Shown: one piece after another, positions 8,533-35,840 of the stretch | Layout: each line of letters opens with the position of its first letter | How positions within the stretch are numbered: position 1 is the first letter of the stretch | Source of the DNA: a filamentous cyanobacterium Phorm 6 | Lineage (GTDB): Bacteria > Cyanobacteriota > Cyanobacteriia > Cyanobacteriales > Microcoleaceae | Assembly: GCA_003003725.1 (NCBI GenBank) | Contig: PVWI01000026.1 | Span: 1 to 35,840 of the forward strand | DNA: 35,840 bases | Direction of reading: 5' to 3' | Notes under the pieces: generated by a model | The model's database searches: none | The model's input: the letters and a program-made list of their open reading frames with translations, nothing else | Told to the model about the DNA's origin: nothing | Position numbers and translations under genes: made by a program

Positions 8533-8998
8533 AATTTTTCCTGATTTTTTGCTGTTTGGTGAGCTTTTATCGCTTATTAATCGGCGTGCTTAATACAATT
8601 CCTCGCTCGTTGGAGCGTGAATATATTGAGCGAGCTAATAGTGTTTTATTACTTTAATGGGGTATGACTCAGATCAATATTATAACGGATGTGTCCGTCT
8701 GCTCCAAGAGATTTTCGGAATTCTTTCCGGTGCTAAATCTTTTCGGGGACTGCGTGCGTCGATGAGAAGAAGTTGCTCAATTTCCTTGACATTTGGGAGG
8801 TTTTAGGTGTGGTTGAGGAACGAAACTCAAATATCAGAGCATGATTCTCAGTAATCGGCAGGATAGCTGTTCCACAATAATTAAATGTTCTTGTGCGGTG
8901 GCCCCGAAGCCCGCCCTTGAAAGCCTGATTAACATTTATGATGCCAGCCGATCGCCATAGGTGTTAAAACCTAGTTAAGCGAGCAAGTTTTGAGAAAA
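8533..8998. other. 466-bp divergent intergenic region, no gene seen
   Basis: Lies between the P-type ATPase (minus) and the C39-like protease (plus). A 7-bp inverted repeat CTCGCTC/GAGCGAG (about 8601-8635) sits just upstream of the ATPase. A TTGACA hexamer at about 8786 has no clear partner -10. No coding remnant was recognised. Confidence 0.4.
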
Positions 8999-10021
8999 AT
9001 GGAAATAATTGTCACACTGGTTTTGGGTTCGGTGCTGCTTGTCTGGGGAATCCGGTTCGGGAAGGTGTTAGTTCGATCGGGTGTGACGGCTAAGGATCTG
9101 TTTAAGGGGCACAATTCGATCGCCCTGCTGTTTTTAGGTTTTTATGTTGGCTTGCTGCTGCTGGCTTTAAATCTGCCGCAAATGCCTGCTTTGCCGATCG
9201 AGTGGCGCGTGCACGGGATGCGAGTCACTTGGACTTTGCTGCGAGTGATGTTGATGGGAGTCTGCGGTATTGGGTTAACTATAAGCTGGCAGACGGCGCG
9301 ATCGCAAGTAATAGCAGTAATTTTAATTGGCTTGCTGGGATTGGGCGGATTTACCAGCGCCGAGGCTTATTTTCTCGCGCCAATTTATGATGATTTAGTT
9401 GATAATTTGCAACCAAACGGTGTATTTAGACAAACTTCTAGCAGCAGTTGCGCGCCGGCGGCGCTAGCAACAGTATTGAGACGCTGGGGAATCGACGCAA
9501 CGGAATCGAGTGTAGCGCGTTTTGCCGGCACCAGTCGCTTGGGAACTTCGATGCCGCAGTTGATTGTAGCAGCGAGGGGGTTGGGTGTAAATGCGATCGA
9601 GCTAGCGCCGACTTGGGAGCAAATTCAGCAAATTAATCGCCCCGGAGTGCTAGCAGTTTGGCTGTTTGACGGCCCTCGCAAGCTACCCCACGCCGTGGCT
9701 TTGCTAGGCATGAATGACAGTGTAGCAGCCATTGGAGACCCGGCGCGGGGCAAGATTTTCTATTTAGACAGAGCAACTTTTGCTTATGTTTGGCGGGAGG
9801 AATACGTGCCGATTTTTCGTTCTGCGGATATCTTGTTAAGTGACAAACAGGCGATCGATTATTTGACTAAATTAGGATATAATAGTGGCGATTTGAAAGC
9901 AGACATCGAGCGATTTCAAACAGATAAAAAATTGAAAATTAGCGGCAAATTAGATAGGATAACTGAATTAATGTTGAGCGGCCCTTTTTTAGAAGGCGTG
10001 CCGAGATTAGATGGCAAATAG
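8999..10021 (+). CDS. Membrane protein with C39-like cysteine peptidase and peptidoglycan-binding domains
   Basis: 340 aa from ATG 8999; a TTG at 8990 would add three residues and is less likely. Four probable membrane segments lie at about 3-19, 41-59, 78-96 and 103-122. They are followed by a papain-fold C39-like domain: Gln145 (oxyanion), Cys151 in SSSSCAPAALATVL, His231 in LPHAVAL and Asp247 in GDP. The last 55 residues (AIDYLTKLGYNSGDLKADIE onward, then RFQTDKKL) look like a peptidoglycan-binding_1 repeat. C39 peptidases normally sit on ABC exporters and cleave double-glycine leaders. Here there is no ATPase or exporter partner, and the cell-wall-binding tail suggests a periplasmic wall or envelope role. 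Substrate unknown. Confidence 0.8.
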   Translation: MEIIVTLVLGSVLLVWGIRFGKVLVRSGVTAKDLFKGHNSIALLFLGFYVGLLLLALNLPQMPALPIEWRVHGMRVTWTLLRVMLMGVCGIGLTISWQTARSQVIAVILIGLLGLGGFTSAEAYFLAPIYDDLVDNLQPNGVFRQTSSSSCAPAALATVLRRWGIDATESSVARFAGTSRLGTSMPQLIVAARGLGVNAIELAPTWEQIQQINRPGVLAVWLFDGPRKLPHAVALLGMNDSVAAIGDPARGKIFYLDRATFAYVWREEYVPIFRSADILLSDKQAIDYLTKLGYNSGDLKADIERFQTDKKLKISGKLDRITELMLSGPFLEGVPRLDGK

Positions 10022-23667: not shown

Positions 23668-25095
23668 ATGCGCATTTTATTTGTATCCGCCGAAGCAGCA
23701 CCCCTAGCCAAAGTGGGCGGTATGGGCGATGTCGTCGGCGCTTTGCCTAAATTTCTGCGCCGCATGGGCCACGATGTCCGCATCTTCATGCCCTACTACG
23801 GTTTCGTCTCCGACAAAATGGACGTTCCCAAAAAACCTGTTTTCCAGGGGGCGGCGATGTTCCAAAATTTCTCAGTCTTTGAAAGTGTTTTGGCGGGAAC
23901 CGATGTACCTTTATACTTATTGCAACATCCATCTTTCTTACCCCGTCGCGTTTACGGTGGCGTAGATGAAGATTGGCGGTTCACTTTCTTTGCTAATGCT
24001 GCCGCTGAATTTGCCTGGAATCACTGGAAACCACAAATTATGCACTGTCACGACTGGCATACAGGGATGATACCTGTTTGGATGAAGCAAGACCCCGATA
24101 TCAGCACAGTTTTTACTATTCACAATTTAGCTTATCAAGGGCCGTGGCGCTGGCGTTTGGAGCAGATGACTTGGTGTCCTTGGTATATGCAAGGTCACAA
24201 TACAATGGCTGCGGCAGTCCAGTTTGCCGATCGCGTAAATACAGTTTCGCCCACCTACGCCGAACAAATCAAAACCCCAGCTTACGGCGAAACTTTGGAA
24301 GGTTTGCTATCTTTTCTAGGCGGCAAAGTATCGGGGATTTTGAACGGAATTGATACAGAATCTTACAACCCAGAAACAGACAAGTACCTTCATCAACAAT
24401 TCAGTGTTGATACTATTGAAAAGCGCCCAGCAAACAAAATTGCCCTGCAAGAAGAAGTCGGTTTGGAAGTGAATAAAGGCGCCTTTTTAATCGGCATGGT
24501 GACGCGGCTGGTAGAACAGAAGGGATTGGATTTGATCATTCAAATGCTCGATCTCTTCATGGCCTATACCGATGCTCAGTTTATTGTACTCGGAACGGGC
24601 GATCGCTACTACGAAACCCAACTCTGGCAAATGACAGCCCGCTATCCCGGTCGGATGTCCACCCAATTACTCTACAACGACGCCCTTTCCCGGCGCATTT
24701 ACGCAGGCTGCGACACCTTCCTGATGCCCAGCCGTTTCGAGCCCTGCGGCATCAGCCAAATGCTCGCCCTCCGCTACGGGTGCGTCCCATTGGTGCGCCG
24801 CACCGGCGGTTTAGTCGATACCGTTTCGCACAACGACCCAATTAATGATACTGGTACCGGTTACTGTTTCGATCGTTACGAACCCCTCGACTTGTTCACC
24901 TGCATGATCCGAGCATGGGAAGGTTTCCGCTACAAAGATAAGTGGAAAGAACTGCAACAACGCGGGATGAGAGAAGATTTTAGCTGGGATATTTCTGCTA
25001 AGAAATACGTCAACTTGTACAGCGATATTTTGGGACTACCGCCCGAAGAAATCGCACCAGAACCAGAACCAGAATTAATCATTGGTAAAGGTTAA
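23668..25095 (+). CDS. glgA: Glycogen synthase, ADP-glucose type (GT5)
   Basis: 475 aa enzyme that elongates glycogen from ADP-glucose. The ADP-glucose-binding KVGGMGD motif is at residue 15 of [35 protein letters not shown] and [11 protein letters not shown] are in the N-terminal Rossmann domain. The retaining-glycosyltransferase signature [18 protein letters not shown] with [10 protein letters not shown] is in the C-terminal one. The start matches the cyanobacterial GlgA1-like form rather than the second GlgA isoform. An AGGAA sequence precedes ATG 23668. The last ~10 residues ([11 protein letters not shown]) are a low-complexity acidic tail. Confidence 0.95.
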
Positions 25096-25105
25096 TCTCT
25101 TTCTT

Positions 25106-25168
25106 TGTAGGGTGCGTCAGGCGTTATTGTCGATTTAGGCGATCGGATATTTGCTGACGCACCCTACA
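25106..25168. repeat. TGTAGGGTGCGTCAG inverted repeat after glgA
   Basis: Perfect 15-bp arms at 25106-25120 and 25154-25168 with a 33-nt loop, starting 11 bp after the glgA stop. This is a widespread cyanobacterial MITE-like motif. It may also end or stabilise the glgA mRNA; no U-tract follows. Confidence 0.75.
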
Positions 25169-25193
25169 GTAACTTAAGGTCAAACCCCCAGTC

Positions 25194-25217
25194 CGGCAGG
25201 GGTTTAAACCCCTGGCG
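25194..25217. repeat. GGCAGGGGTTTAAACCCCTGGC palindrome
   Basis: A short palindrome (AGGGGTTTAAACCCCT) of the same family as the element inserted at 22971-23088 and the one at 29569-29593. Spacer of glgA and DUF1824. Confidence 0.65.
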
Positions 25218-25237
25218 GTCTTGCGGACTAAGTTGAC

Positions 25238-25265
25238 ACCAATTACCAATTACCAATTCCCAATT
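25238..25265. repeat. ACCAATT heptamer tandem repeat (4 units)
   Basis: ACCAATT three times, then CCCAATT, in exact 7-bp register. It is an STRR-type repeat of filamentous cyanobacteria and touches the stop codon (25264-25266) of the DUF1824 gene. Confidence 0.75.
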
Positions 25266-25692
25266 AATCAACAAATAAATCGAGAGGTAAATGACCGTAA
25301 GTGCCGCTAACTCCACCTTCTAAAGCAGATTGACATGACACCAAAACGCCCCGATAAGTTCCCGGATAACCATCAACATAATACGAACCCTTCAAAGTAT
25401 TAAACTTGATATAAACCGAACCAGTAAAGGTCGAAAAAGCATTTGGATCTAAAACAGCTTGATATCCCAAAGCCTTCAAATAAGTTGCTAAAGCTGAAAA
25501 GCCCTCATCCGTCGAAGCAGCGCACACTCCCAGCATTTGATAATCCGACAAACTTGCTACCAGCAAAATCGCTTGACGTAGCGCTTGTTTTTCTAGTGGC
25601 GATGCTACAGATTGCATATCCAGACAAGTAAAATCTTTGAGAATTTGCTGTGCTGCTTCTACAGTTAGGGTAGTCGGGTTTTGAGTAGACAT
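25264..25692 (-). CDS. DUF1824 family protein
   Basis: 142 aa soluble protein. The C-terminal part (GSVYIKFNTLKGSYYVDGYP, then TYRGVLVSCQSALEGG) matches the recurrent pattern of DUF1824, found in cyanobacteria and plant plastids and without known function. The N-terminal half is helical (LTVEAAQQILKDFTC, EKQALRQAILLVASLSDYQM). Full length for the family. Its stop overlaps a heptamer repeat. It is transcribed towards glgA (convergent). Confidence 0.8.
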   Translation of the reverse strand: MSTQNPTTLTVEAAQQILKDFTCLDMQSVASPLEKQALRQAILLVASLSDYQMLGVCAASTDEGFSALATYLKALGYQAVLDPNAFSTFTGSVYIKFNTLKGSYYVDGYPGTYRGVLVSCQSALEGGVSGTYGHLPLDLFVD

Positions 25693-25803
25693 GAATTGCT
25701 CTGATATTTACCAAAAGTACGATCGACAGTTGGGCACTCGTCAACGAATTTCTGACATTGCAGCCTCGATCGACGGCGGTAACACTCGCCTAACTCCTGA
25801 TTG

Positions 25804-25876
25804 TAGCGCATTGTGCGATCCTCTGCGAGGGCTTTCCTTCGGATCACTTCGCCCTCGCAGAGGATCGCACGCGCTA
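25804..25876. repeat. Perfect 20-bp-arm stem-loop with HIP-like GCGATCC core
   Basis: Arms 25813-25832 (GTGCGATCCTCTGCGAGGGC) and 25851-25870 are exactly complementary with an 18-nt loop. A further TAGCGC (25804-25809) pairs with GCGCTA (25871-25876) across a 3-nt bulge. It lies between the divergent DUF1824 and deacetylase genes. Possibly a repeat element that can form a cruciform. Confidence 0.8.
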
Positions 25877-25934
25877 CCTAAATTCCCAATAAACAGCAAA
25901 AAAAATATCAATATTACTGAATTTGCCCCTATTA

Positions 25935-26909
25935 ATGGTAGAGATGAAGAGTACGCAGATTGGCAATCAAAAAATTAGGAGCAAGCAATTGTTAGAAAAC
26001 ATAAAAATCCTGCGAGATTTTATATTTCGCCTGCTACACAAAGCCAAACCGATTTATTTATTGCTGATATTTGCAATCAGTATAGGTATTTCCGGCTGGA
26101 CAGTAGAATCTAATTTCATCAGAATCCCGATTATCGGCTTTCACGATATTGTAGACACTCGAAACCCCGCCGAAATGCCACCTCGGAGACTCGCTTTTCC
26201 CATCGACTACACCAAACAAAATTTCTCAGTCTTTTTAGAATATCTCATTAAAGAAAACTATTGGTTGTTATCATCTCAAGACTTGTACGTATACTTTATC
26301 GACAAGTCCCAGCCCATACCAGCTCAATATCTAGGTAAAAAACTAATCATAATCTCCTTTGACGACGGCTACAAAGGCGTTCATAAAAATGCACTTCCCA
26401 TCTTAGAAAAACTGTCAGTTACTTACAAACAAAAGGGCAAGTTTGTGGTTTTTGTCAATCCTCACTTTTTAGGTGTTGATATGGGCAGAGATTTTTTGCC
26501 CCACACTACTTGTAACGATTTAAGAGACGGATACCAAAAAGGTTTTTATGACGTTCAGTCTCACGGTTTTACTCACAAAAACTTAACTAAGGTGAGCGGG
26601 AAAGAATTAGAATTTGAGATTGCTAAATCTAAGTCAGAGTTGAGAAAGTGTATGGGAGATTTAGACAAAAATAAGGTTATCGGCGCTCACATCGCCTATC
26701 CCTACGGCGCATCAGACAGGGAAGTGGAAGAGCTTTTGCCTAAATATCATTTAACTGGCTTTTTGTACGATGACAATCTATTCAGAGTAAACCGACTAAA
26801 AAATAACTACCGGATCTCTCGCATAACTGTGGATAAAAATATGTCGCCTAGAGCTTTAATTAGCATAGCTAAAAAAGCTTCTACTCTCAGAAAAAAAGGG
26901 TGGTTTTAG
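25935..26909 (+). CDS. Membrane-anchored NodB-fold polysaccharide deacetylase
   Basis: About 324 aa. ATG 25935 is chosen; TTG 25923 or ATG 25944 are alternatives and no strong ribosome site decides. One membrane segment (PIYLLLIFAISIGISGW, about residues 40-56) is followed by the extracytoplasmic catalytic domain. NodB motif 1 is ISFDDGYKG (metal-binding and catalytic Asp pair), motif 2 is SHGFTHKNL (His-x3-His) and motif 3 is AYPYGASD. The family removes N- or O-acetyl groups from exopolysaccharide, PNAG-like polymers or peptidoglycan; the substrate here is unknown. Lys-rich tail RKKGWF. Confidence 0.87.
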   Translation: MVEMKSTQIGNQKIRSKQLLENIKILRDFIFRLLHKAKPIYLLLIFAISIGISGWTVESNFIRIPIIGFHDIVDTRNPAEMPPRRLAFPIDYTKQNFSVFLEYLIKENYWLLSSQDLYVYFIDKSQPIPAQYLGKKLIIISFDDGYKGVHKNALPILEKLSVTYKQKGKFVVFVNPHFLGVDMGRDFLPHTTCNDLRDGYQKGFYDVQSHGFTHKNLTKVSGKELEFEIAKSKSELRKCMGDLDKNKVIGAHIAYPYGASDREVEELLPKYHLTGFLYDDNLFRVNRLKNNYRISRITVDKNMSPRALISIAKKASTLRKKGWF

Positions 26910-26948
26910 GGGAAAAGTATTTTTTGGGAGTAAACAATGAGTCATTAT

Positions 26949-27083
26949 ATCAATTCCGGTTGCATCGGAATTAATATCACCCAAAATCAGGATACGGCAG
27001 TGTCATATTCCTACCCAAAATAAAATTGTAGGGAAACAGCACTGCCGTGTCCTCTATCATTCCGGCGCAGCCGTAATTGATAT
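26949..27083. repeat. Nested foldback repeat downstream of the RT gene
   Basis: The outer arms TATCAATTCCGGTTGC (26949) and GCAGCCGTAATTGATA (ends ~27083) are complementary with two mismatches. The inner arms AGGATACGGCAGTG...TTCCTAC (26989-27014) and GTAGGGAAACAGCACTGCCG (from 27028, continuing TGTCC) pair over about 25 bp. The whole resembles the GGCACGGCAGTGCC-type MITEs of cyanobacteria. It lies between the convergent 3' ends of the deacetylase and RT genes. Confidence 0.7.
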
Positions 27084-27103
27084 TATTTACTATAATTGCG
27101 AGC

Positions 27104-27176
27104 TTATAAAACGCATCAAGACCTTTATAAACCGGGTTTTTTTACCTTCTTAAAGGTGTTGATGCAGTATTTTATA
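27104..27176. repeat. ~25-bp-arm hairpin 75 nt past the RT stop
   Basis: Left arm TTATAAAACGCATCAAGACC (27104-27123, continuing TTTATA) pairs with TAAAGGTGTTGATGCAGTAT (27151-27170, continuing TTTATAA). There are a few mismatches and one small bulge, with a loop of about 22 nt containing CCGGGTTTTTTT. It would be in the 3' region of an RT transcript. It could be a repeat, a terminator-like structure or part of an RNA used by the RT. Confidence 0.6.
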
Positions 27177-27211
27177 AAAAACCAGATTTCTGAGTATTGG
27201 ACAGCGAAAAA

Positions 27212-27236
27212 GAGGACTGAAGTCCTCACTACAAAC
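27212..27236. repeat. GAGGACTGAAGTCCTCACTACAAAC palindrome copy
   Basis: Single copy of the family also at 5618, 10044 and 15571. It lies 16 bp after the RT stop codon on the RT transcript side. Confidence 0.65.
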
Positions 27237-27251
27237 TTTAGAATGGTGATA

Positions 27252-28649
27252 TTACCATTTATTTTTAATTGTTTTAACCTGTTCTATAAATTCTGCACCT
27301 TTCTCAGGATTTACCATTGCTACAAAGTTAGCAAAACCTTGAATCGATGCGATAACATCCTCTGAATTCCCCCAACGCTTGCCATCTGGCCCATCTTTTT
27401 CAATTTGAAATAAAGCAGCGCGGAAGCGTTTCAACATTTTTTTAGAAATACTGAGTTGTTCGTTGACAACAATTCCAGTCACTTCTTGTTGCCGATTCTT
27501 CCGCAAAATTCGAGTCTTTTCTTCGTTAATCACCAATCCTTCATGAGCGACAATCGACTCCGTGCGCCTGAGTACGTTACAAATGTTTTGCAGGCTGTCT
27601 CCCGATGCCGAAAATGTCAAATCGTCGGCGTAGCGAGTGTAAACAAACCCCAATTCGCCAGCCATTTGAGTTAAGCGCCTATCTAGGCGCCGGCACAGCA
27701 AATTCGTAATAGCTGGACTTGCGGGAGAACCTTGGGGCAAATGGCGTTCTGTAACTGCGACAAAGTAGGTTTTGCCGTCTAATTCCAATTCTTCAATCTC
27801 CGGTTCCGTACACAGCAATCCAAAGATTGTAGCCGCAGCTTCTGAGTACCCAAAAGATTGAAAAAGTCCTTTGACTCGCTTGTAAGAAATTGAGGGGAAA
27901 AAGTTTTTTAGGTCAAAATTGATAATAACTTCTGAGCCGACATGAGGGCGAGCGTTTGTGACAATTGAATGGCTGGTGCGAAAGCCGTGTGCTGCGCCGT
28001 GCAGTTCGAGTTTTTCTAAAATATTAACAAGAATCCAGTGCTGTGCTGCTTTGAGTCGGGGCATGGGCGCGGAAATGTGCCTTTCTCCCCCAGTTTTTTT
28101 AGGTATTTTAAACCGGATGTAGTGGGAGATATGGGAGGTTTTGCGATCGAAGGCGAGAAACCGTAATTGTCCGACACTAATCTCCATTGCAGCGGCAATT
28201 TCTGCTCCTATATTGCAAAGCGGTAACTGATAGCTTTGCAACCGTTCTTCGTTATAATTAGTGTTGTTAAGTCCGCCAGATACCTCATCGCCCAAGTAGC
28301 AAATTTCTTGCTGTTTTCTCTGATGCCAATTTTGCGATCGCTCTTGCCGTTCTTTTTCGCGCCGTTCTTTAGTTTCCTGCTGTTTTTGGCGCGACTGAAT
28401 CAGCCGCTGTTTGAGCATTTCCTTGCGGAGTGCTTGTTCGTTGTGTAGCAGCGAATTTTCCCGGCGCAGTTCGTCAAGTTCCCGCTGAATTTCCCCGATG
28501 CGACGAATTTCGTCGGCCGGATCTTGGGGGATTTCGCCTTGTGCGGGCCAGAAACCGAAGCGGATCATTTCTTCGAGAATGAATTCTTCTTTGCTGGTTT
28601 CCCGGATGCGATCGTACAATTCTTGGCGAGTGCGCGGCTGGTCAGTCAT
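27252..28649 (-). CDS. Retron-type reverse transcriptase with coiled-coil N-terminal extension
   Basis: 465 aa. Residues 1-165 are an extension that includes a highly charged coiled coil (about 48-115, Arg/Glu/Gln-rich). RT core: GGERHISAPMPRLKAAQHWI (187-206), AHGFRTSHSIVTNARPHVG with the retron X-type NAxxH (232-236), NFDLKNFFPSIS (244-255, first catalytic Asp), HLPQGSPASPAITN (303-316), YTRYADD (337-343) and EEKTRILRK...VTG (390-392, retron Y-type). Spacing and wording recall the Mx162/Sa163-type myxobacterial retron RTs, which also have long N-terminal extensions. There is no maturase or endonuclease domain, so it is not a group II intron RT. It starts 37 bp after the rnc stop, with no msr-msd in between. 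Biological role unknown. Confidence 0.92.
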   Translation of the reverse strand: MTDQPRTRQELYDRIRETSKEEFILEEMIRFGFWPAQGEIPQDPADEIRRIGEIQRELDELRRENSLLHNEQALRKEMLKQRLIQSRQKQQETKERREKERQERSQNWHQRKQQEICYLGDEVSGGLNNTNYNEERLQSYQLPLCNIGAEIAAAMEISVGQLRFLAFDRKTSHISHYIRFKIPKKTGGERHISAPMPRLKAAQHWILVNILEKLELHGAAHGFRTSHSIVTNARPHVGSEVIINFDLKNFFPSISYKRVKGLFQSFGYSEAAATIFGLLCTEPEIEELELDGKTYFVAVTERHLPQGSPASPAITNLLCRRLDRRLTQMAGELGFVYTRYADDLTFSASGDSLQNICNVLRRTESIVAHEGLVINEEKTRILRKNRQQEVTGIVVNEQLSISKKMLKRFRAALFQIEKDGPDGKRWGNSEDVIASIQGFANFVAMVNPEKGAEFIEQVKTIKNKW

Positions 28650-28686
28650 AGGGCAAAGTTGGTAGTTTTTACCTGTTTTTTCAAGT

Positions 28687-29400
28687 TTAAATCAATCCGC
28701 GTTTTTTCAGCCTAGCTAGTGCATCTTCTGCTGCATTTTTCTCAGCATCTTTCTTGCTTTTGCCTTTACCTTCTCCATAGAGTTTCTCTGCCACATACAC
28801 TTTAGCGAGAAATTCTGGGGCGTGAGGCGTACCTCCTGCTTGGACTGTCAAGTATTTGGGCGGAGTCGTGTCGCCGTTGGTCTGTACCCACTCCTGAAAG
28901 CGGTTTTTCGAGTCTACAGTCGATCGGGTTTCCACAACATTTTCGGGAACAGAATCAAACATTTGCCATACAAACTCGCGAACTTTGTCCATATCTTGCG
29001 TGTCCAGATAGTAAGCGCCAACGAACGCTTCAAAAGTGCTGCTGAGCAAATTTGGATTAGTAATCCCACCTTCTCGAAGAGCTCCTTTTCCGAGCCGCAT
29101 TTTTAAGTCTAAACTGATTTCGGTAGCAAATCTCGCTAATTGTCTTTCATCTACCAATGCAGAACGCCGGCGAGTAAGTTGGTCTTCTCCCATTTCGGGA
29201 TGGCGCTGGTAGAGATATTCGCCGCTGAGAAAAGTCAGCAAGGCATCGCCGAGAAATTCTAAGCGTTCGTTATCTGCTTCGCGGAATGTGGGGTTTTCAT
29301 TGACGTAGGAACGATGGGTTAGTGCTTGACGCAGGAGTTTGTCATTGTTGAATTCGGGAAGAGTAATTTGTATCTCTTTTGTTTGGTTAGTTAATTGCAT
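28687..29400 (-). CDS. rnc: Ribonuclease III, one catalytic Asp replaced by Ser
   Basis: 237 aa dsRNA endonuclease with the family's two-domain layout. The nuclease domain has ERLEFLGDALL (Glu45, Glu48, Asp52, corresponding to E. coli 38, 41, 45), Glu72 (E. coli 65), then NPNLLSSTFEAFVGAYYLD. A C-terminal dsRBD runs over about 164-233 (NRFQEWVQTN, GEGKGKSKKDAEKNAAEDAL). The numbering offset is a constant 7, which makes Ser121 the counterpart of E. coli Asp114, while Glu124 keeps Glu117. Asp114 is normally an active-site metal ligand, so activity may be altered. It lies upstream of, and 37 bp from, the RT gene on the same strand. A mini-III or second RNase III elsewhere in the genome could provide the housekeeping function. 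Confidence 0.92.
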   Translation of the reverse strand: MQLTNQTKEIQITLPEFNNDKLLRQALTHRSYVNENPTFREADNERLEFLGDALLTFLSGEYLYQRHPEMGEDQLTRRRSALVDERQLARFATEISLDLKMRLGKGALREGGITNPNLLSSTFEAFVGAYYLDTQDMDKVREFVWQMFDSVPENVVETRSTVDSKNRFQEWVQTNGDTTPPKYLTVQAGGTPHAPEFLAKVYVAEKLYGEGKGKSKKDAEKNAAEDALARLKKRGLI

Positions 29401-29606
29401 GGGAGTTTGATAATTGTGATTTTTCTGTGAGTTTAGTATTTTTTTTTGCGGACATGAAAGAGCCGCAGATGGCGGTTGGTTTGGAGAATCTAGTCTATCA
29501 AATAAACTGGATTTTTGCTATCTGCGACGAGGTTGATTTTAACAGATATTTGGGACTTTTGCCGTTAGTCTGCCAGGGATTTAAACCCCTGGCGGGCTGT
29601 GTTGCT
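29401..29606. repeat. rnc-NYN spacer with GCCAGGGATTTAAACCCCTGGC palindrome
   Basis: 206-bp spacer. The palindrome at 29569-29593 belongs to the family at 22971 and 25194. A CCGCAGATGGCGG-type fragment lies at about 29463. For the NYN transcript this is a 3' hairpin without a U-tract, so it is not a typical intrinsic terminator. Read-through into rnc is possible. Confidence 0.55.
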
Positions 29607-30161
29607 TCAACCAGATAATTGATCTGCTTGTATTGATAACTCTTTTGGCTTTTTTAGTTGCGGTTTCAATCCTGCACACAAACTAGGTAATTCATCTACA
29701 TAATGAAAGTTATCGTCACCAACGAGCTTAATCAGTTTTTTGCTTGCACTTTCGCGCCGTGCAAAAACGATCACTGTTTTACCCAAAGCCATCAAAACGA
29801 GGATTAAACCTGCAAAGTCCCTATCTCCTGAAACTAGGATAATTATGTCAGGAGAAAGCTTAGTTGCAACTCGTTTGATACAGTCAAACACGAATTGTTT
29901 ATCTACACTATTTTTGCCTGAATTGCGAACTGGAACGCCTTGAAAACCAAGATTTTCTAGCTGATTTTTGGCGCTAACTTGATTTTTGTGCTGCGGGTTA
30001 TAGTAATGTCTTTGGAAATCTAAACACCCTTTTGATAGGGCAAAAGCGACCAATAATTCACCTTGCTTTGGATTTAATTGGACGTTCTCACCATCCGAAA
30101 GTATAGCAACTCGCTGAGACTGGCTTTTTTGTTTGCCTGTGGTTCGATGATTGTCTGTCAT
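29607..30161 (-). CDS. NYN-domain (LabA/DUF88-like) predicted ribonuclease
   Basis: 184 aa, a PIN-like NYN fold. After a basic 15-residue start come VAILSDGENVQ (Asp23), GKNSVDKQFVFDC (Asp87, Asp93) and ILVSGDRDFAGLI (Asp113, Asp115), together the acidic metal-binding cluster of the family. GKTVIVFARRESASKKLIKL and DNFHYVDELP then complete the fold. LabA-type proteins of cyanobacteria belong here; NYN domains are generally RNA nucleases or bind RNA. The C-terminus is Lys/Gln-rich. It is the first of three co-directional genes NYN-rnc-RT and lies downstream of a large hairpin region. Confidence 0.85.
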   Translation of the reverse strand: MTDNHRTTGKQKSQSQRVAILSDGENVQLNPKQGELLVAFALSKGCLDFQRHYYNPQHKNQVSAKNQLENLGFQGVPVRNSGKNSVDKQFVFDCIKRVATKLSPDIIILVSGDRDFAGLILVLMALGKTVIVFARRESASKKLIKLVGDDNFHYVDELPSLCAGLKPQLKKPKELSIQADQLSG

Positions 30162-30310
30162 TGTATCGTTCCTAAATAAGGGTTAACAGACAGCATCAAT
30201 AAATTACCCATCTAGCCAAAGAAGTATTGTTTTTGGGTTCGCTCAAAAATGAGATGTCCCATTTAACAAATTCCTCTAATAACAAACTATGAATTTAGTT
30301 TGTAGTTGCT

Positions 30311-30581
30311 TGGTTAGCGTCTCAGCGATAGGATGTGCAGATTTCGGAAAGGCGTCTTAAAAACCCGTTGATATAGAAATTCAAACAAATGTCGTGCCAA
30401 CTGACCTATTAGACCTATCCCAAAAAATCTTAAACTTTTGCCGTGTCGAGACAAGAACTTAGTTTTTAGAGATGTCTATTGATTCCAGTGGAAACGACAT
30501 TAACTTGAATGTCTATATCAACGGAGCTTTGGGACACTTACCCGAAATCTGCACATCCTACCGCTGAGACGACTTAACCGA
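30311..30581. repeat. 271-bp nearly symmetric foldback (long imperfect hairpin)
   Basis: The whole segment is one inverted repeat centred on TCGA at about 30446. Best arms: TGGTTAGCGTCTCAGCGATA (continuing GGATGTGCAGATTTCGG, 30311-30347) against the complement of 30541-30581, nearly perfect over about 37 bp. A second block, CCGTTGATATAGAAATTCAA (continuing ACAAATGTCGT, 30364-30394), pairs with 30493-30525 at about 26 of 31 positions. Weaker pairing fills the rest up to the loop. It could be a foldback MITE, or a structured RNA of about 270 nt. No open frame is present. It lies about 150 bp upstream of the NYN gene. Confidence 0.8.
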
Positions 30582-30821
30582 CACTTTTTGCTTTTGAATG
30601 CGGTGTCTATCTGAGCTGTATGTCTTTTAACCTAGCATCCTCAAAATTGGATGTCAAGTATCAAGTAAAAATAATTTGAATTACCCGATCGCAAATCCTG
30701 AAACCATTTTGCGATCGGCTTCTAGCTCGCCCAAAGATCCAAGTTAAATTGGGATTCATCTATTTATAGATGAAAAAAAAATCGCGCGCCGCCACTGGTT
30801 GCCCCTTCGTAAACCCCCCAG

Positions 30822-30934
30822 GACTAGACTGCTCAACTCCAGCGGGGCCAGGTACTGTTGGTCGTTGGCTTCGCAGAAGCCACACCGCAACACCAACAGT
30901 ACCTGAAGCCCCGCACAGTCAAGAGCAGGCTAGT
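30822..30934. repeat. 113-bp multi-tier hairpin
   Basis: Nested complementary blocks: GACTAGACTGCTC (30822) with GAGCAGGCTAGT (ends 30934), GCGGGGC (30842-30848) with GCCCCGC (30908-30914), GGTACTGTTGGT (30851-30862) with ACCAACAGTACC (30892-30903), and innermost GGCTTCGCAGAAGCC (30867-30881). GC-rich compared with its surroundings. A short open frame covering it (30770-30952) is not convincing as a gene. It lies between the SWIM-protein stop and the 271-bp foldback. The remaining sequence 30582-30821 shows no other structure or gene. Confidence 0.75.
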
Positions 30935-31021
30935 GATGCTTGTCTAAACTAAACGCAAGGACGGCGATCCACCGCCCGGATTGCAAGGCTGTTTACCAAT
31001 TTAAACGCGCGATTTATTAAG

Positions 31022-32665
31022 TTATTGACACTGACGTGCGTGTTGCATTCGCAGTGCTAAAATGTGTTCGCAAGGGCCTTTGTACAGCTTGTTTTGCTGG
31101 TGCCAATTACAAGTACATTCTGCCTCAATCATACGCTCGTCTGCATCAATTGTCAAGTGCGGATTCAAAGTTTTTCCCCGGTCTTTGACACTGCCTCGCA
31201 CAGTGAATGCGCCGGAAGAATCGCTGGTAAAATCCGTCACTTCTACCGCATTTTCACTCAAGAATCCAGTTGCTTTTGATTCTCTTTCGTTGGCAAATCT
31301 CAACCGTTCTAGCGGTAAAGGTTCTCGGCTCAATTCCCGCACTCGATAAACCTGTTTGTTCAAATCGTAAATTGCCCTTCCCGCTTGCGTGTAGGCACTC
31401 AATGCACCCAACACCGAAGCCCGATTTAACTTCAGTCTTGTTGCCAAACTGTCAGCAGTTTCTACCCAATTTTCTTTTAGCGCATCAAAGATTAATTGCT
31501 GCGTCCAAGCATCAACATCGGCGCGGGGTGCCATTAAATCAAAGTTACCGGATTGCGACCAATCATTGGCACTCCATCCCGACAATCCTAGGGTAAATGA
31601 CATATCGCCCAAATCTGCAACGTAAAAAGAAGGCATTCCCGTTCCCAAGAGGTGAACTGTGAACTTTTTGGCGACGGGAATCAGTCTTTCGAGAATGTGA
31701 ATGCGGCGCCTTCCCCAAACGCGAATTTGTTGCTCTTGCGAACCAGTATAGATCGATCGCGCGCAAACAACTTCCGTCCCCCACGGATCGAAAATCACCC
31801 GCACCGGTTCCCCCGGCTTTAGGATGTAGCGCATACTGCGCGGGCCTTGCTTCTCCTTGTGGCGGCGCAGGACAAAACAAATATTGTGGATATCCATCGG
31901 ATGCAAATCAAACCGCACCGCCGGCAAAGACATCGCCGAACTAACTTGCAAAAATCCTCTCACCCAACTGTCGGGTAAGTCAATTTTAACTTCTTTAAAA
32001 GTCTCTTCATTTACTGTCTGAACATCAAAACTCGAGGGATCTACTTGCAGGGAAGTAGTCTTGTAACTGCGAATTTTTTGGAATTCATCGTAAAGCGCTG
32101 CGGAATAGTCGATGTTAGTCGTGCCGCAGCCAAATTCGCTGATATTTTGAAAGACTTCGTAGCTGGCACTTAATCTGCCATAACTCGATTCATCTTGGCT
32201 AAAACACTCGAAAAATACTTCGTCTGGATGAACTGTAATAACCGGATCTAGGACAAACCAAGCATCGAAGTCTTTTTTGTAAAGGTAGTTGAAGTATTGT
32301 TGTTTGGCTTTATAAAAAGGTGCTAAACGCTGGAAATTTAATTTTGTTAATTCGCTTAATTCTGATTGCAGTGGCTGAATTTTATTGGCTAGTTCTTGGC
32401 GCTGCGAAGCTACTATCTGCCAGTCGATTTCTTGTTGCCCAGCAACCCATTCTTTGTAAGCTGTTTTGTCTTTGGATTTGAAGCGCATATCGGAAACTAC
32501 GACATCGTGCAAGGCGCTGATGGCTTCGCGAAAGGCGACGTTTTGCCGCAGTTCTCCGATAAAATAAGTGGGCGGGCGTTTGGTGTCTGGGGAGAATGAC
32601 ATTTGGGTATTGCCGCCGCTTTCTGTGACTCCGGTGCTGCCTTTGTAAGAGTAGTTAAATTCCAT
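31022..32665 (-). CDS. SWIM zinc-finger protein
   Basis: 547 aa. The C-terminal SWIM motif is complete: ECTCNWHQQ...GPCEHILALR (Cys-x-Cys, then Cys-x-His) at about 515-540, preceded by a strand pair typical of the domain. The N-terminal ~480 residues are not catalytic in any recognised way. They include a coiled-coil-like stretch QRQELANKIQPLQSELSEL (about 85-105) and a DSLATRLKLNRASVLGALSA winged-helix-like segment (about 405-430). SWIM proteins of this size are encoded with MoxR-type AAA ATPases, VWA and WGR/HEAT proteins (E. coli yehLMPQ-type clusters). Here the gene just upstream is a WGR/HEAT protein, which fits. Start ATG 32665. Confidence 0.85.
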   Translation of the reverse strand: MEFNYSYKGSTGVTESGGNTQMSFSPDTKRPPTYFIGELRQNVAFREAISALHDVVVSDMRFKSKDKTAYKEWVAGQQEIDWQIVASQRQELANKIQPLQSELSELTKLNFQRLAPFYKAKQQYFNYLYKKDFDAWFVLDPVITVHPDEVFFECFSQDESSYGRLSASYEVFQNISEFGCGTTNIDYSAALYDEFQKIRSYKTTSLQVDPSSFDVQTVNEETFKEVKIDLPDSWVRGFLQVSSAMSLPAVRFDLHPMDIHNICFVLRRHKEKQGPRSMRYILKPGEPVRVIFDPWGTEVVCARSIYTGSQEQQIRVWGRRRIHILERLIPVAKKFTVHLLGTGMPSFYVADLGDMSFTLGLSGWSANDWSQSGNFDLMAPRADVDAWTQQLIFDALKENWVETADSLATRLKLNRASVLGALSAYTQAGRAIYDLNKQVYRVRELSREPLPLERLRFANERESKATGFLSENAVEVTDFTSDSSGAFTVRGSVKDRGKTLNPHLTIDADERMIEAECTCNWHQQNKLYKGPCEHILALRMQHARQCQ

Positions 32666-32801: not shown

Positions 32802-35800
32802 CTAACTCCTCACCTCAACTACAGGCTTTACTTGAATTGGTAAGTCAAGCTGAGGGTAACTCCTGTGAATTTTTAGCATAGTTTGAATCGCTGTCGCTTT
32901 ATCTGCGATCGCAATTGTAGCCGATTGCCTGGTCAAAATTTCCGCTACCACCTTTGCAGATTGCTCGCTTTTTTGCGCTTCCGCATCCAGAAAAGCAAAA
33001 ACCCGCTTTTTGGTAACTCTCCCTTTATTCACCCGCGACAAAACGGCGACAAAAAATGGCGCTAATTCCCGCAATTTCTCGTGATTGCTTGCTGCATAAC
33101 TTTCCAAATAATTCGTCGCAAACAACTGCATATCCGCTGACGGATGTTCGCTAAACTTCAGCAAATAATCTTGTCCGCACTCATCCTGAAAATAGCGAAT
33201 TACCAAATCTCTGCCAAACTGCCGCACATCTTCCCGAATGCTGTCGCAAAGGCTAACCATGATTTCGGGAGTCCAATCTTGATCAGTCAATTCCGTGCGA
33301 AAAATCCTCGCGGCAAATTCCCGCGAATCCTCCCACTTTGCCTCCAGCAGTCGCACGGCTGACAGCATTTCTTGAGAATTGGTGCGAATTACATCTAGCT
33401 TTTGGAAAAACATTTGTCTGGCTGCTTCTCGCACCGATAAAATCTCGTGACTTGCCAGTTTGACGATCGCAATTGTATCAAACTCCGCCGCCCAATTCGC
33501 GCAATTTTCAACCAGCACAAATCCGCCTAATTCCTGTGCGGCTGAAGACTTCGCTTTCAGCAGCAGCCAAGCTTTTTCTCGATCAATTCCAGGCATCCAT
33601 CCGGGTAAATCTTCCCGCAGCAAATCCACTAAGTAGCCGTGCACTCCTTCGTGCCTTTCAGGAAGCATCAAAACATCGATAAATTCGGCTGCCAAATCAG
33701 CGCTGAATTCGGGATTTCCGGCTGCCAAACGCCGAATTACAGGCTTGATTGCATTGCGGATGTCTGCTAAAGCATTGACTGCCATTCCTACTAGCAAAAT
33801 TCGCTTGTCGCCTGTCAGCGTTGCGTCGGAAAGTTGACCGAACAACCTGATGCCAATTCCCCGAATTTGTTCGTAAGGAGAGTCAATCAATGATTCGATT
33901 AATTCAGGAGGCAAATTAGCTGCACTGATTTCGTGGTTGAGCAAAATTCTCGCGCCCAATTCCTGAATTTCGGCGATCGGGTTTCTCAGCAAGTCCAACA
34001 CTACGCCCAATCCCAAACTCCGCAGTTGTGCGGGAAAACAAAACAGTAAAATTTCTGCTATTTCTGCTGATAAAATTGAGGTGTCAGTCGGCAATATAGA
34101 TGCTGTCTCGAATGCCAGCATATGAGCGATGACTCTGCCAATTAACACTTTTGCAGTTCGATCGCTCATAACTGACGAGCTTAACAAACGGCGGGCCAAC
34201 TGGCGCGTATCTCCGTACAAACTGCTAACTAAAGCGGCAATTAATTCGCTGTCTTCTAAAAGGCGATCGCGCTGTTCGTCAATCCAGTCAAAAGCTTGGG
34301 TTCTCCCTGGCAAAAATCCGCAGTTAACCAGCGCTAAAATAACTTCCCGGTGGGCTGGATATCTGTAATATCCGTTTTGGACTGCCAAATTGAAACCCAC
34401 TTCTGCTGTAACTTCGTAAGGTGCAGCAATCAGTTTAATTGCGGTGTCAGCATCTATTCCAGCCAAAAATTGCGGACAAGCTTTCAGGGCTTTAACAGCG
34501 AAATGATGCACCGGGCGACAGTTGCTTTCTAACAATAGCTGCAACAGCGCATCGGGATTTTGTTCCCAAAGTTCCGGGAAAGCTTCTTCTCGCACGGACG
34601 GTTCCGGGTCTCCGGGTTTGTAACCTTCTTTGCAGCGCCATGCTTGGGAATTGGTAAAATAAGCATAGCGCGGGCTGTTTTCGTAGAGAATGCGGTTTAA
34701 TGTTAAATAACCGGCAAAAATATCCCATGCAGCGGTGCCGGACTCAAATCGAGTCCAGTTAGAGGTATTCCACTGATAATAAGTGCTCTGCAAAACTGCT
34801 TCGGCATCGCTATCAACATATTGCAGCAAAATGCTGACAGCCATGTTTGCATAATCAGCATCTCCTGCTTCGCCTAATTGTTTGAGAGTCCGCCATACCC
34901 GCCGCAGCAAATATTCCCGAGTATTGCTGCTGTAGGCAATTCTGGTGTTGGGACTCTGCATTTCGTTTAGTAATTCATTGGTTTTAACTTCTTTGTATTC
35001 GTTGGTTTTGTTGTTATATTCCCAGTCAGAGTTTCTCAAGGAAACGTAATCATCGCCGGGAATGCGAACGCCGTATTTGTTGCTGCGGTACATGGCTTTT
35101 TCGTCTTCAAAGCGGCGCGCAAGAATGGCAAATACTTCGGCGTCACGGCGGTATTCAGCCATTTTGAAGATGTGGCGAATTTGCTTGAAGTAATTTGGTT
35201 TTAGCGGTGCAGTTTTTAAGATATCCAGTAATGCCGATCGCACAAACCGACTGTCAATCTGATAAAGTCTGTCTAGAACCGCAAAACGACTGCTATCTTC
35301 AGTGTCGAGTTCAACTTTCAATGCTGTAGAAAATTCCTCCGCGCTGCCGTTTTCGACTAATTCTCGCAACTGTGCGGGTAGTAATTCGATTATGGACGAT
35401 CGCAAGTGCGATCGGCCTTCCTCATCCGCCAACTTTAGCAATCCTTCAAAAGCAATTCTCGCCACAAACTCCGCAGTCGCAGCATCCCGATCAAGCCGAG
35501 TCAGCGCCTCCACAGCGCCCTCGCCGCCGCACCAGCCCAAACTCCAAGCAATACAGTAGTCTCGCAGCGGTTCTCCCGTGCCGATGAGAGCGATTAGTCC
35601 CCGCCCTGCTTCGGCAATTTTCAGCTCCCCAGCCCGCCAAATCGCCCGTTCCAGAGGCCATTTAGGACTCCCCCCAATAGCGATATTATTCAAAATAGCT
35701 TGCTGGCGCGTCTCGGCGCGAGGAAGTTCTGCCGCTGCATCGGGCGCGCTTGGGGCGTCGCTGAGAACTTCCAGATAGCCTTTTTTTACCTTTTCGGCAA

Positions 35801-35840
35801 CTAGCTTGTCGAAAACTTTCTCTGCTTGGGCTAAAGGCAC
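32802..35840 (-). CDS. WGR/HEAT-repeat protein (5' end beyond window)
   Basis: At least 1013 codons, open at the right edge. The GTG at the very edge is unlikely to be the true start, because the first residues (VFDKLVAEKVKKGYLEV) look like the final strand-turn of a WGR domain, whose Trp-Gly-Arg part would lie outside. The rest is made of paired helices characteristic of HEAT/ARM-like solenoids: RDYCIAWSLGWCGGEGAVEA, PVIRRLAAGNPEFSADLAAE, EILSVREAARQMFFQKLD and VRQFGRDLVIRYFQDECG. There is no enzymatic motif, so it is probably a scaffold. It lies 136 bp upstream of the SWIM gene and resembles large MolR-type proteins of MoxR-VWA-SWIM loci. The AAA ATPase and VWA genes are expected further right. 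Confidence 0.8.
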   Translation of the reverse strand: MPLAQAEKVFDKLVAEKVKKGYLEVLSDAPSAPDAAAELPRAETRQQAILNNIAIGGSPKWPLERAIWRAGELKIAEAGRGLIALIGTGEPLRDYCIAWSLGWCGGEGAVEALTRLDRDAATAEFVARIAFEGLLKLADEEGRSHLRSSIIELLPAQLRELVENGSAEEFSTALKVELDTEDSSRFAVLDRLYQIDSRFVRSALLDILKTAPLKPNYFKQIRHIFKMAEYRRDAEVFAILARRFEDEKAMYRSNKYGVRIPGDDYVSLRNSDWEYNNKTNEYKEVKTNELLNEMQSPNTRIAYSSNTREYLLRRVWRTLKQLGEAGDADYANMAVSILLQYVDSDAEAVLQSTYYQWNTSNWTRFESGTAAWDIFAGYLTLNRILYENSPRYAYFTNSQAWRCKEGYKPGDPEPSVREEAFPELWEQNPDALLQLLLESNCRPVHHFAVKALKACPQFLAGIDADTAIKLIAAPYEVTAEVGFNLAVQNGYYRYPAHREVILALVNCGFLPGRTQAFDWIDEQRDRLLEDSELIAALVSSLYGDTRQLARRLLSSSVMSDRTAKVLIGRVIAHMLAFETASILPTDTSILSAEIAEILLFCFPAQLRSLGLGVVLDLLRNPIAEIQELGARILLNHEISAANLPPELIESLIDSPYEQIRGIGIRLFGQLSDATLTGDKRILLVGMAVNALADIRNAIKPVIRRLAAGNPEFSADLAAEFIDVLMLPERHEGVHGYLVDLLREDLPGWMPGIDREKAWLLLKAKSSAAQELGGFVLVENCANWAAEFDTIAIVKLASHEILSVREAARQMFFQKLDVIRTNSQEMLSAVRLLEAKWEDSREFAARIFRTELTDQDWTPEIMVSLCDSIREDVRQFGRDLVIRYFQDECGQDYLLKFSEHPSADMQLFATNYLESYAASNHEKLRELAPFFVAVLSRVNKGRVTKKRVFAFLDAEAQKSEQSAKVVAEILTRQSATIAIADKATAIQTMLKIHRSYPQLDLPIQVKPVVEVRS

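Follow-up and report, generated by a model that had tools for sequence, protein, structure and literature searches.

A type XIII retron of the cyanobacterium Phorm 6 with its candidate msr-msd RNA apart from the reverse transcriptase, beyond resident NYN and rnc genes

Retrons are usually sought through an RNA located just upstream of the reverse transcriptase (RT), in a compact cassette, and the type XIII class was reportedly set up by Mestre et al. in 2020. The myxobacterial retrons Mx162, Sa163, and Ne144 have an RT with an extended N-terminus, share an RT group with enzymes of Nostoc and Trichodesmium, and have a proven msDNA (PMC6868368). In the case of Mx162, the transcript measures 241 nt, with msr 71, msd 162, and a CAGC priming context, and CAGC is one of the conserved contexts of the retron priming guanosine, together with TAGC and GAGC (PMC6868368). 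Genes between msr-msd and RT are noted in the same source as a retron variation, and Retron-Nex1 (Ne160) has duplicated msr-msd copies with no RT inside a kilobase of them, thus offering a precedent for an RNA and an RT that lie apart (PMC6868368). One retron RT is listed for Trichodesmium erythraeum IMS101 in PMC8867640.

In this study, we have analysed a window of 35,840 nucleotides, the whole stretch of DNA under consideration, from the filamentous cyanobacterium Phorm 6. The genes of interest are the following:

27252-28649, minus strand: retron RT of type XIII, 465 aa (PADLOC RT_XIII, motifs, AlphaFold2/Foldseek)
28687-29400, minus strand: rnc, RNase III, a resident gene between ncRNA and RT (TIGR02191, 225.5 bits, cut-off 166.25)
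29607-30161, minus strand: NYN-domain protein, resident partner of rnc (Pfam NYN, 1.5e-20)
31022-32665, minus strand: SWIM zinc-finger effector (PADLOC SWIM_XIII, 812 bits, E 3.7e-245)
32802-35840, minus strand: WGR/HEAT effector (PADLOC WGR_XIII, 1115 bits, match over 56-970 of the 973 profile positions)

An earlier note on this DNA had described the RT by its retron hallmarks NAxxH, YADD, and VTG and by a long N-terminal extension, and both observations hold. The motifs are found as NARPH at residue 232, YADD at 340, and VTG at 390, with N232, A233, H236, YADD, and VTG invariant in an alignment of 39 sequences. The protein matches the PADLOC profile RT_XIII over residues 2-464 (662 bits, E 1.2e-199), the second-best profile being RT_other with 300 bits. 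In the AlphaFold2 model (mean pLDDT 88.8), an RT fold is accompanied by one unbroken helix spanning residues 45-114, which supports a long helical extension at the N-terminus; the confidence is lower for residues 1-50 (52-70 per block). The top 18 PDB matches of this model in Foldseek are all retron RTs, with Ec86 (Eco1) in first place (TMt 0.78-0.81, E 3.5e-26), and Ec86 is the nearest solved RT in phmmer as well (5e-47). The Ec86 match begins at residue 133 of the Phorm 6 protein, leaving the N-terminal extension without an Ec86 counterpart, and the Ec86 effector differs from the type XIII effectors. Other identities were considered and rejected, namely a group II intron maturase (TIGR04416, 69.7 bits vs a cut-off of 300), a DRT2 antiviral RT (NF041746, 44.1 bits vs a cut-off of 390), and an RT of the DGR type, for which the same profile scan returned no model and which does not turn up in the Foldseek list before ranks 25 and 30. 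Judged by profile, motifs, and predicted fold, the product of 27252-28649(-) is a real retron RT of type XIII.

The two effector genes, which were absent from the earlier note, complete the system. Pfam SWIM scores 19.4 bits on the product of 31022-32665, slightly below its cut-off of 19.6. The WGR gene reaches the end of the contig and lacks the first 55 positions of the WGR_XIII profile, its 5' end being probably missing from the contig. As RT, SWIM, and WGR all match type XIII profiles, nearly over their full length, these genes make up a type XIII retron that brings along effectors of its own. Its parts follow the order WGR - SWIM - ncRNA - [NYN - rnc] - RT. The N-terminal extension and the direction WGR-SWIM-ncRNA-RT are common to Phorm 6 and its type XIII relatives, from which it differs by the resident NYN and rnc between ncRNA and RT; in related cyanobacterial type XIII systems, the RT is frequently wholly unlinked. 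The retron is therefore ordinary by its parts, type XIII being known, and unusual by their arrangement.

Remeasurement confirms that only 37 bp separate RT and the upstream rnc, as noted earlier, and that this gap leaves no room there for an msr-msd. Two ways out had been offered: an RNA located elsewhere, at one of three hairpins (27104-27176, 26949-27083, or 30311-30581), or an RT that works without a dedicated ncRNA. The first was right as to an RNA elsewhere, for which there is now a candidate, but not as to the hairpins, the candidate being a fourth element that had not been listed:

30773-31018, minus strand: candidate retron ncRNA (msr-msd), 246 nt (covariance model R1, covariation, a1/a2 pairing)
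30959-30977, minus strand: putative msr-like part, stem-loop (helix 3, 99.5% of cells paired)
30822-30935, minus strand: putative msd-like part, long conserved stem (helices 4-8)

The candidate, a single copy in the Phorm 6 genome, lies between SWIM and NYN, directly behind SWIM and 2123 bp upstream of the RT. The R1 match in the window has a core at 30796-30989 (209 bits), and the ends of the element are formed by a1 (31004-31018) and by a2 with a run of nine T (30773-30790). From the general retron plan and the Mx162 sizes given in PMC6868368, we infer that the msr corresponds to the stem-loop 30959-30977 and the msd to the long stem 30822-30935 and beyond, which encloses a hairpin of variable sequence (30842-30914). 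An msr-msd RNA with a1/a2 repeats and a long hairpin, a feature of type XIII, is found here as sequence and structure; its usual position immediately upstream of the RT is not, with NYN and rnc lying in between. Both the Mx162 RNA (241 nt) and the Phorm 6 candidate (246 nt) contain CAGC, although the msDNA of Mx162, Sa163, and Ne144 is proven according to PMC6868368, whereas that of Phorm 6 is predicted. The CAGC at 30988-30991 possibly holds the priming guanosine, but it is not conserved, a G occupying that column in 12 of 23 sequences.

Comparative evidence for the candidate comes from 27 copies of a common structured element between SWIM and RT, contributed by the window and by 24 relatives, of which two have a pair of copies each; the element is usually located right behind the SWIM stop. 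A 23-copy alignment, with Nannocystis and Parachryseolinea among its members, shows both-side changes in 27 of 50 pairs and a covariation score of 0.418 against 0.160. The share of paired cells is 92.9%, compared to 78.8% for shuffles and no more than 43.7% when partners are slid, a comparison in which the structure, derived from the same 23 sequences, is favoured over the slid controls, and in which the shuffles leave relatedness in. The a1/a2 stem was assessed in 44 cyanobacterial and 37 other hits, leaving aside weak hits and L158 (same genome as L011); over all copies it is beaten or equalled by 30 of 440 and 43 of 370 shuffles, and in some copies, such as L144 and L152, it does not surpass the shuffles. 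Behind a2, a T-run is present in 31 of the 44 cyanobacterial and 14 of the 37 other hits, some genomes being counted twice, and a simple terminator scan does not list a2 with its nine T as a terminator. A scan of 25000-32000 against Rfam 15 gave no match to the ncRNA at E up to 1. PADLOC searches with msr-msd models, as stated in PMC9252829, and the RNA at 30773-31018 may already be covered by them.

Among 68 relatives fetched by RT similarity, R1 matches within the fetched stretch were obtained in 46, namely 15 of 32 cyanobacterial and 31 of 36 other loci, those of Chitinophaga being weaker (60-74 bits). Wherever a non-cyanobacterial locus gave a match (31 of 31, among them Nannocystis exedens DSM 71, L040, where R1 finds the RNA beside the RT), the distance from the end of the RNA to the RT match downstream is about 14-239 bp, which is the ordinary retron place. 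The other five (L041, L054, L061, L068, and L069) gave no R1 match in the fetched stretch; in L054 and L061 this stretch opens with the RT, and the RTs of L068 and L069 are distant ones. In L041, a locus of type XIII, the SWIM and RT matches are separated by only some 29 bp (8972-9001), and in L059 the WGR gene is found downstream of the RT, not upstream.

All three hairpins named in the earlier note exist in the sequence. Two of them correspond to elements that are listed here together with a further hairpin downstream of the RT:

26944-27091, strand unassigned: dispersed hairpin repeat, not retron RNA (66 match rows in its own genome, itself included)
30317-30571, minus strand: long imperfect inverted repeat upstream of NYN, not retron RNA (z -15, single copy)
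27212-27227, minus strand: terminator-like hairpin downstream of the RT (consensus scan only, with 9 sites in the region vs a shuffled mean of 4.9)

As a possible msr-msd, 26949-27083 was rejected for being part of the dispersed repeat, which is MITE-like, with better copies 75-86% identical and with both strands of some copies included in the 66 rows; 27104-27176 was rejected for giving no R1 match in a run over the whole window. The hairpin at 30311-30581 was the initial candidate and was dropped once the conserved RNA behind SWIM had been found. The inverted repeat to which it corresponds is 255 bp long, with arms about 73% alike overall and nearly perfect at their ends, and the idea that it represents the msr-msd draws on its high stability, its single copy, and its place upstream of NYN-rnc-RT. 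Yet among 206 loci it occurs outside Phorm 6 only in L002, L005, and L006, while type XIII loci generally carry the R1 RNA, and L006 keeps its homologue beside NYN even though its R1 ncRNA and SWIM are on another contig. We regard this idea as extremely improbable and retain the element behind SWIM as the candidate.

The relation between enzyme and RNA was followed in an order set of 148 genomes, of which 41 have a full-length RT, 41 a strong ncRNA, and 40 a SWIM gene; in another six, related RTs or a fragment are all that is present. All 40 SWIM genomes also have RT and ncRNA (Fisher p 2e-35, only a guide as the genomes are related), and the forty-first, G138, which is 82% complete, has RT and ncRNA and no SWIM. 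Two strong ncRNAs are present in 8 of the 41. The ncRNA is found within 100 bp of SWIM in 32 of the 40. Its distance from the RT is below 0.5 kb in 7 genomes and 0.5-5 kb in 11, Phorm 6 included; in 18 the RT has no ncRNA for at least 5 kb upstream, so that about half of these retrons would act in trans, and in 4 the distance is left undecided by contig ends. As a group, the cyanobacterial type XIII members do not keep the msr-msd immediately upstream of the RT.

Individual genomes illustrate the extent of this separation. RT and ncRNA are 639 kb apart on a large contig in G045, 1.1 Mb apart in one chromosome in G122 (where SWIM is 45 kb from the ncRNA), and on separate contigs of 2.5 and 1.1 Mb in G056. 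In the case of Calothrix parasitica NIES-267 (L021, G154), a contig of 8,952,335 bases carries ncRNA and SWIM at 1.86 Mb, and a record of 8,952,435 bases carries the RT near 3.05 Mb; the distance is about 1.2 Mb if both represent the same molecule, as their lengths suggest. From the cyanobacterial RT relatives without an ncRNA in the fetched stretch, 15 of 17 (all but L015 and L064) were traced genome-wide, some of them being also in the order set, and all 15 have R1 and SWIM matches elsewhere; L019, L020, and L026 are short contigs, uninformative on the distance. Stops interrupt SWIM in the L026 and L034 genomes, and the RT frames of L034 (Trichodesmium sp. jk18x7bins.61) and L118 (G076) have internal stops. 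Unlike the extra RNA copies that Retron-Nex1 has away from an RT (PMC6868368), the cyanobacterial RNA far from the sole full-length RT is often the sole strong match of its genome and accompanies SWIM. In many related cyanobacteria, enzyme and RNA have drifted apart in the chromosome, yet are inherited together.

The same data bear on the second way out offered earlier, an RT that functions without a dedicated ncRNA, for instance like a domesticated or DRT-type enzyme. Such an enzyme would be consistent with the lack of an msr-msd between rnc and RT and with six unlinked loci that showed no RNA near the RT even with filters off (best E 0.65). With default filters, none of the 22 genomes classed as unlinked or undecided, these six included, gave an R1 match in its RT stretch. 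Nevertheless, the conserved, covarying RNA is present in 41 of 41 order-set genomes with a full-length RT, and the retron-only top structure matches, with DRT2 and group II models far under their cut-offs, also speak against it. We give this explanation hardly any credence.

We therefore consider it highly probable that the locus encodes a type XIII retron of the order given above, whose RT uses the displaced ncRNA in trans. In such a model, the SWIM transcript would end at the ncRNA, where the a1/a2 stem and the nine T might double as a terminator, although this idea is weak, and the RT would be transcribed apart from the ncRNA, probably together with rnc. The RT would then bind the ncRNA in trans, prime on a guanosine near the 5' stem, and copy the long hairpin into msDNA. 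As in other retrons, RT, msDNA, SWIM, and WGR may assemble into a complex that stays inactive as long as no phage infects the cell. NYN and rnc would stand in between for historical reasons and are probably uninvolved.

The resident character of these two genes is apparent from strains of the same genus without a type XIII retron. Both G033 (L170) and G109 (L169) carry glgA - DUF1824 - rnc - NYN, and their rnc groups with that of the window in a quick tree. The G109 locus also has a deacetylase gene, and the ORF ends of deacetylase and rnc are 124 bp apart, compared to 1777 bp in the window, where this space holds the RT. Furthermore, NYN is found upstream of rnc in 8 of 19 RT-free rnc loci (a twentieth, L188, was left out because of an RT fragment). 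The presence of NYN-rnc without RT in sister strains and in these loci identifies both genes as residents. With the RT on one side of the pair and ncRNA-SWIM-WGR on the other, insertion on both sides or some other rearrangement may have taken place.

The earlier note had also pointed to a link between RT and RNase III. As gene order this link is real and is not unique to Phorm 6, since the RT directly follows rnc in 12 of 32 cyanobacterial relatives, a few of whose fetched stretches are too short to tell, and in 5 of 41 order-set genomes (G000, G001, G092, G004, and G101), the two sets overlapping in some species; as a functional link it is weak, rnc being resident with or without the RT and the order being found in 0 of 36 other relatives. 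In G003, G052, and G098 the contig ends are too near the RT to tell, and in Hydrocoleum (L026) the gap is 1.4 kb. The order is thus not kept across the family, and its restriction to a minority indicates that RNase III is probably not a retron component. A role for it is possible but unsupported.

Nonetheless, the repeated occurrence of rnc next to the RT may be a sign that RNase III is relevant. RNase III, with or without NYN, would then be a working part of the retron, the RT having been recruited beside rnc and the enzyme processing the ncRNA, whose long paired stems are potential substrates. On an RT tree of 67 rows, from which G076 and L034 (internal stops) and RTs without the type XIII N-terminus (G109, G128, G037, G111, and the second RT of G043) had been dropped, the rnc-adjacent label requires four changes against 19 unlinked rows, three of them forced by well-supported branches, with 36 rows that belong to neither group left uncounted. 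The rnc-adjacent RTs thus occupy four separate places, and two RNase III lineages are involved, as the nearest RNase III of Trichodesmium, Okeania, and Hydrocoleum belongs to another lineage in a quick tree. In the scanned order-set loci, rnc is the only gene cluster immediately upstream in more than one RT lineage; ten scanned upstream neighbours of other RTs comprise Uma2, NB-ARC, methyltransferase, nucleotidyl transferase, PIN, Nif11, and RTX repeats, and three with no family. On the other hand, a single clade is not rejected for all 12 rnc-adjacent rows (AU p 0.086) or for the nine of the Microcoleus and Trichodesmium groups (AU p 0.127), so one old adjacency followed by later moves would suffice, and the recurrence need not mean selection. 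In addition, 146 of the 148 genomes possess an RNase III of some lineage irrespective of the RT, and the low counts of the rnc-RT order and the RT-free NYN-rnc pairs argue in the same direction. A working role of RNase III is, in our estimation, distinctly unlikely. We read the data as an RT that has moved often and has reached the vicinity of rnc more than once, or once early. A broader proposal, in which the cyanobacterial type XIII retrons would be stable dispersed trans systems held by selection and not by linkage, sometimes with several ncRNA genes per RT, with RNase III trimming the ncRNA as a borrowed fourth component and the RT under rnc control in several lineages, appears unlikely to us as a whole. 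The preferred reading remains that of an RT acting in trans on a displaced ncRNA, with NYN and rnc as bystanders.

A search of the open literature, outside which most subscription papers lie, brought up no description of an order-wide separation between type XIII RTs and their RNA. In at least 29 of this order's 40 type XIII systems, the 0.5 kb upstream of the RT contain no RNA, so that annotation by neighbourhood would miss the RNA or label the RT an orphan. It is unusual for the parts of a putative defence system to be often unlinked and still inherited together in 40 of 40 genomes, and this raises the question of why linkage was given up. From a methodological point of view, R1 represents a direct tool for finding missing RNAs, also where a locus holds two to four copies. 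Such multi-copy loci were seen in L027 (7944-8906), L029 (704-1415), L039 (5082-5544), and L060 (7306-8858), with four tandem ncRNAs before the RT in L027 and three in L029; the copies within L039 and within L060 have different variable hairpins, so that several msDNAs per RT are possible.

Second, partial R1 matches were observed far from the RT in Nannocystis (G164, G165, G166, and G167), covering model positions of about 48-168 (72-154 in G167, where the match is weak), and these are reminiscent of the RT-less msr-msd copies of Retron-Nex1. A search for SWIM in G109, G128, G037, and G111 found none. Related RTs without the type XIII N-terminus were also met in L163, L164, L165, L166, and L171; N-terminal TPR repeats are present in three of the four scanned (L163, L164, and L165), weak R1 matches lie near the RT in L163, L164, and L166, and these enzymes perhaps represent a sister retron type.
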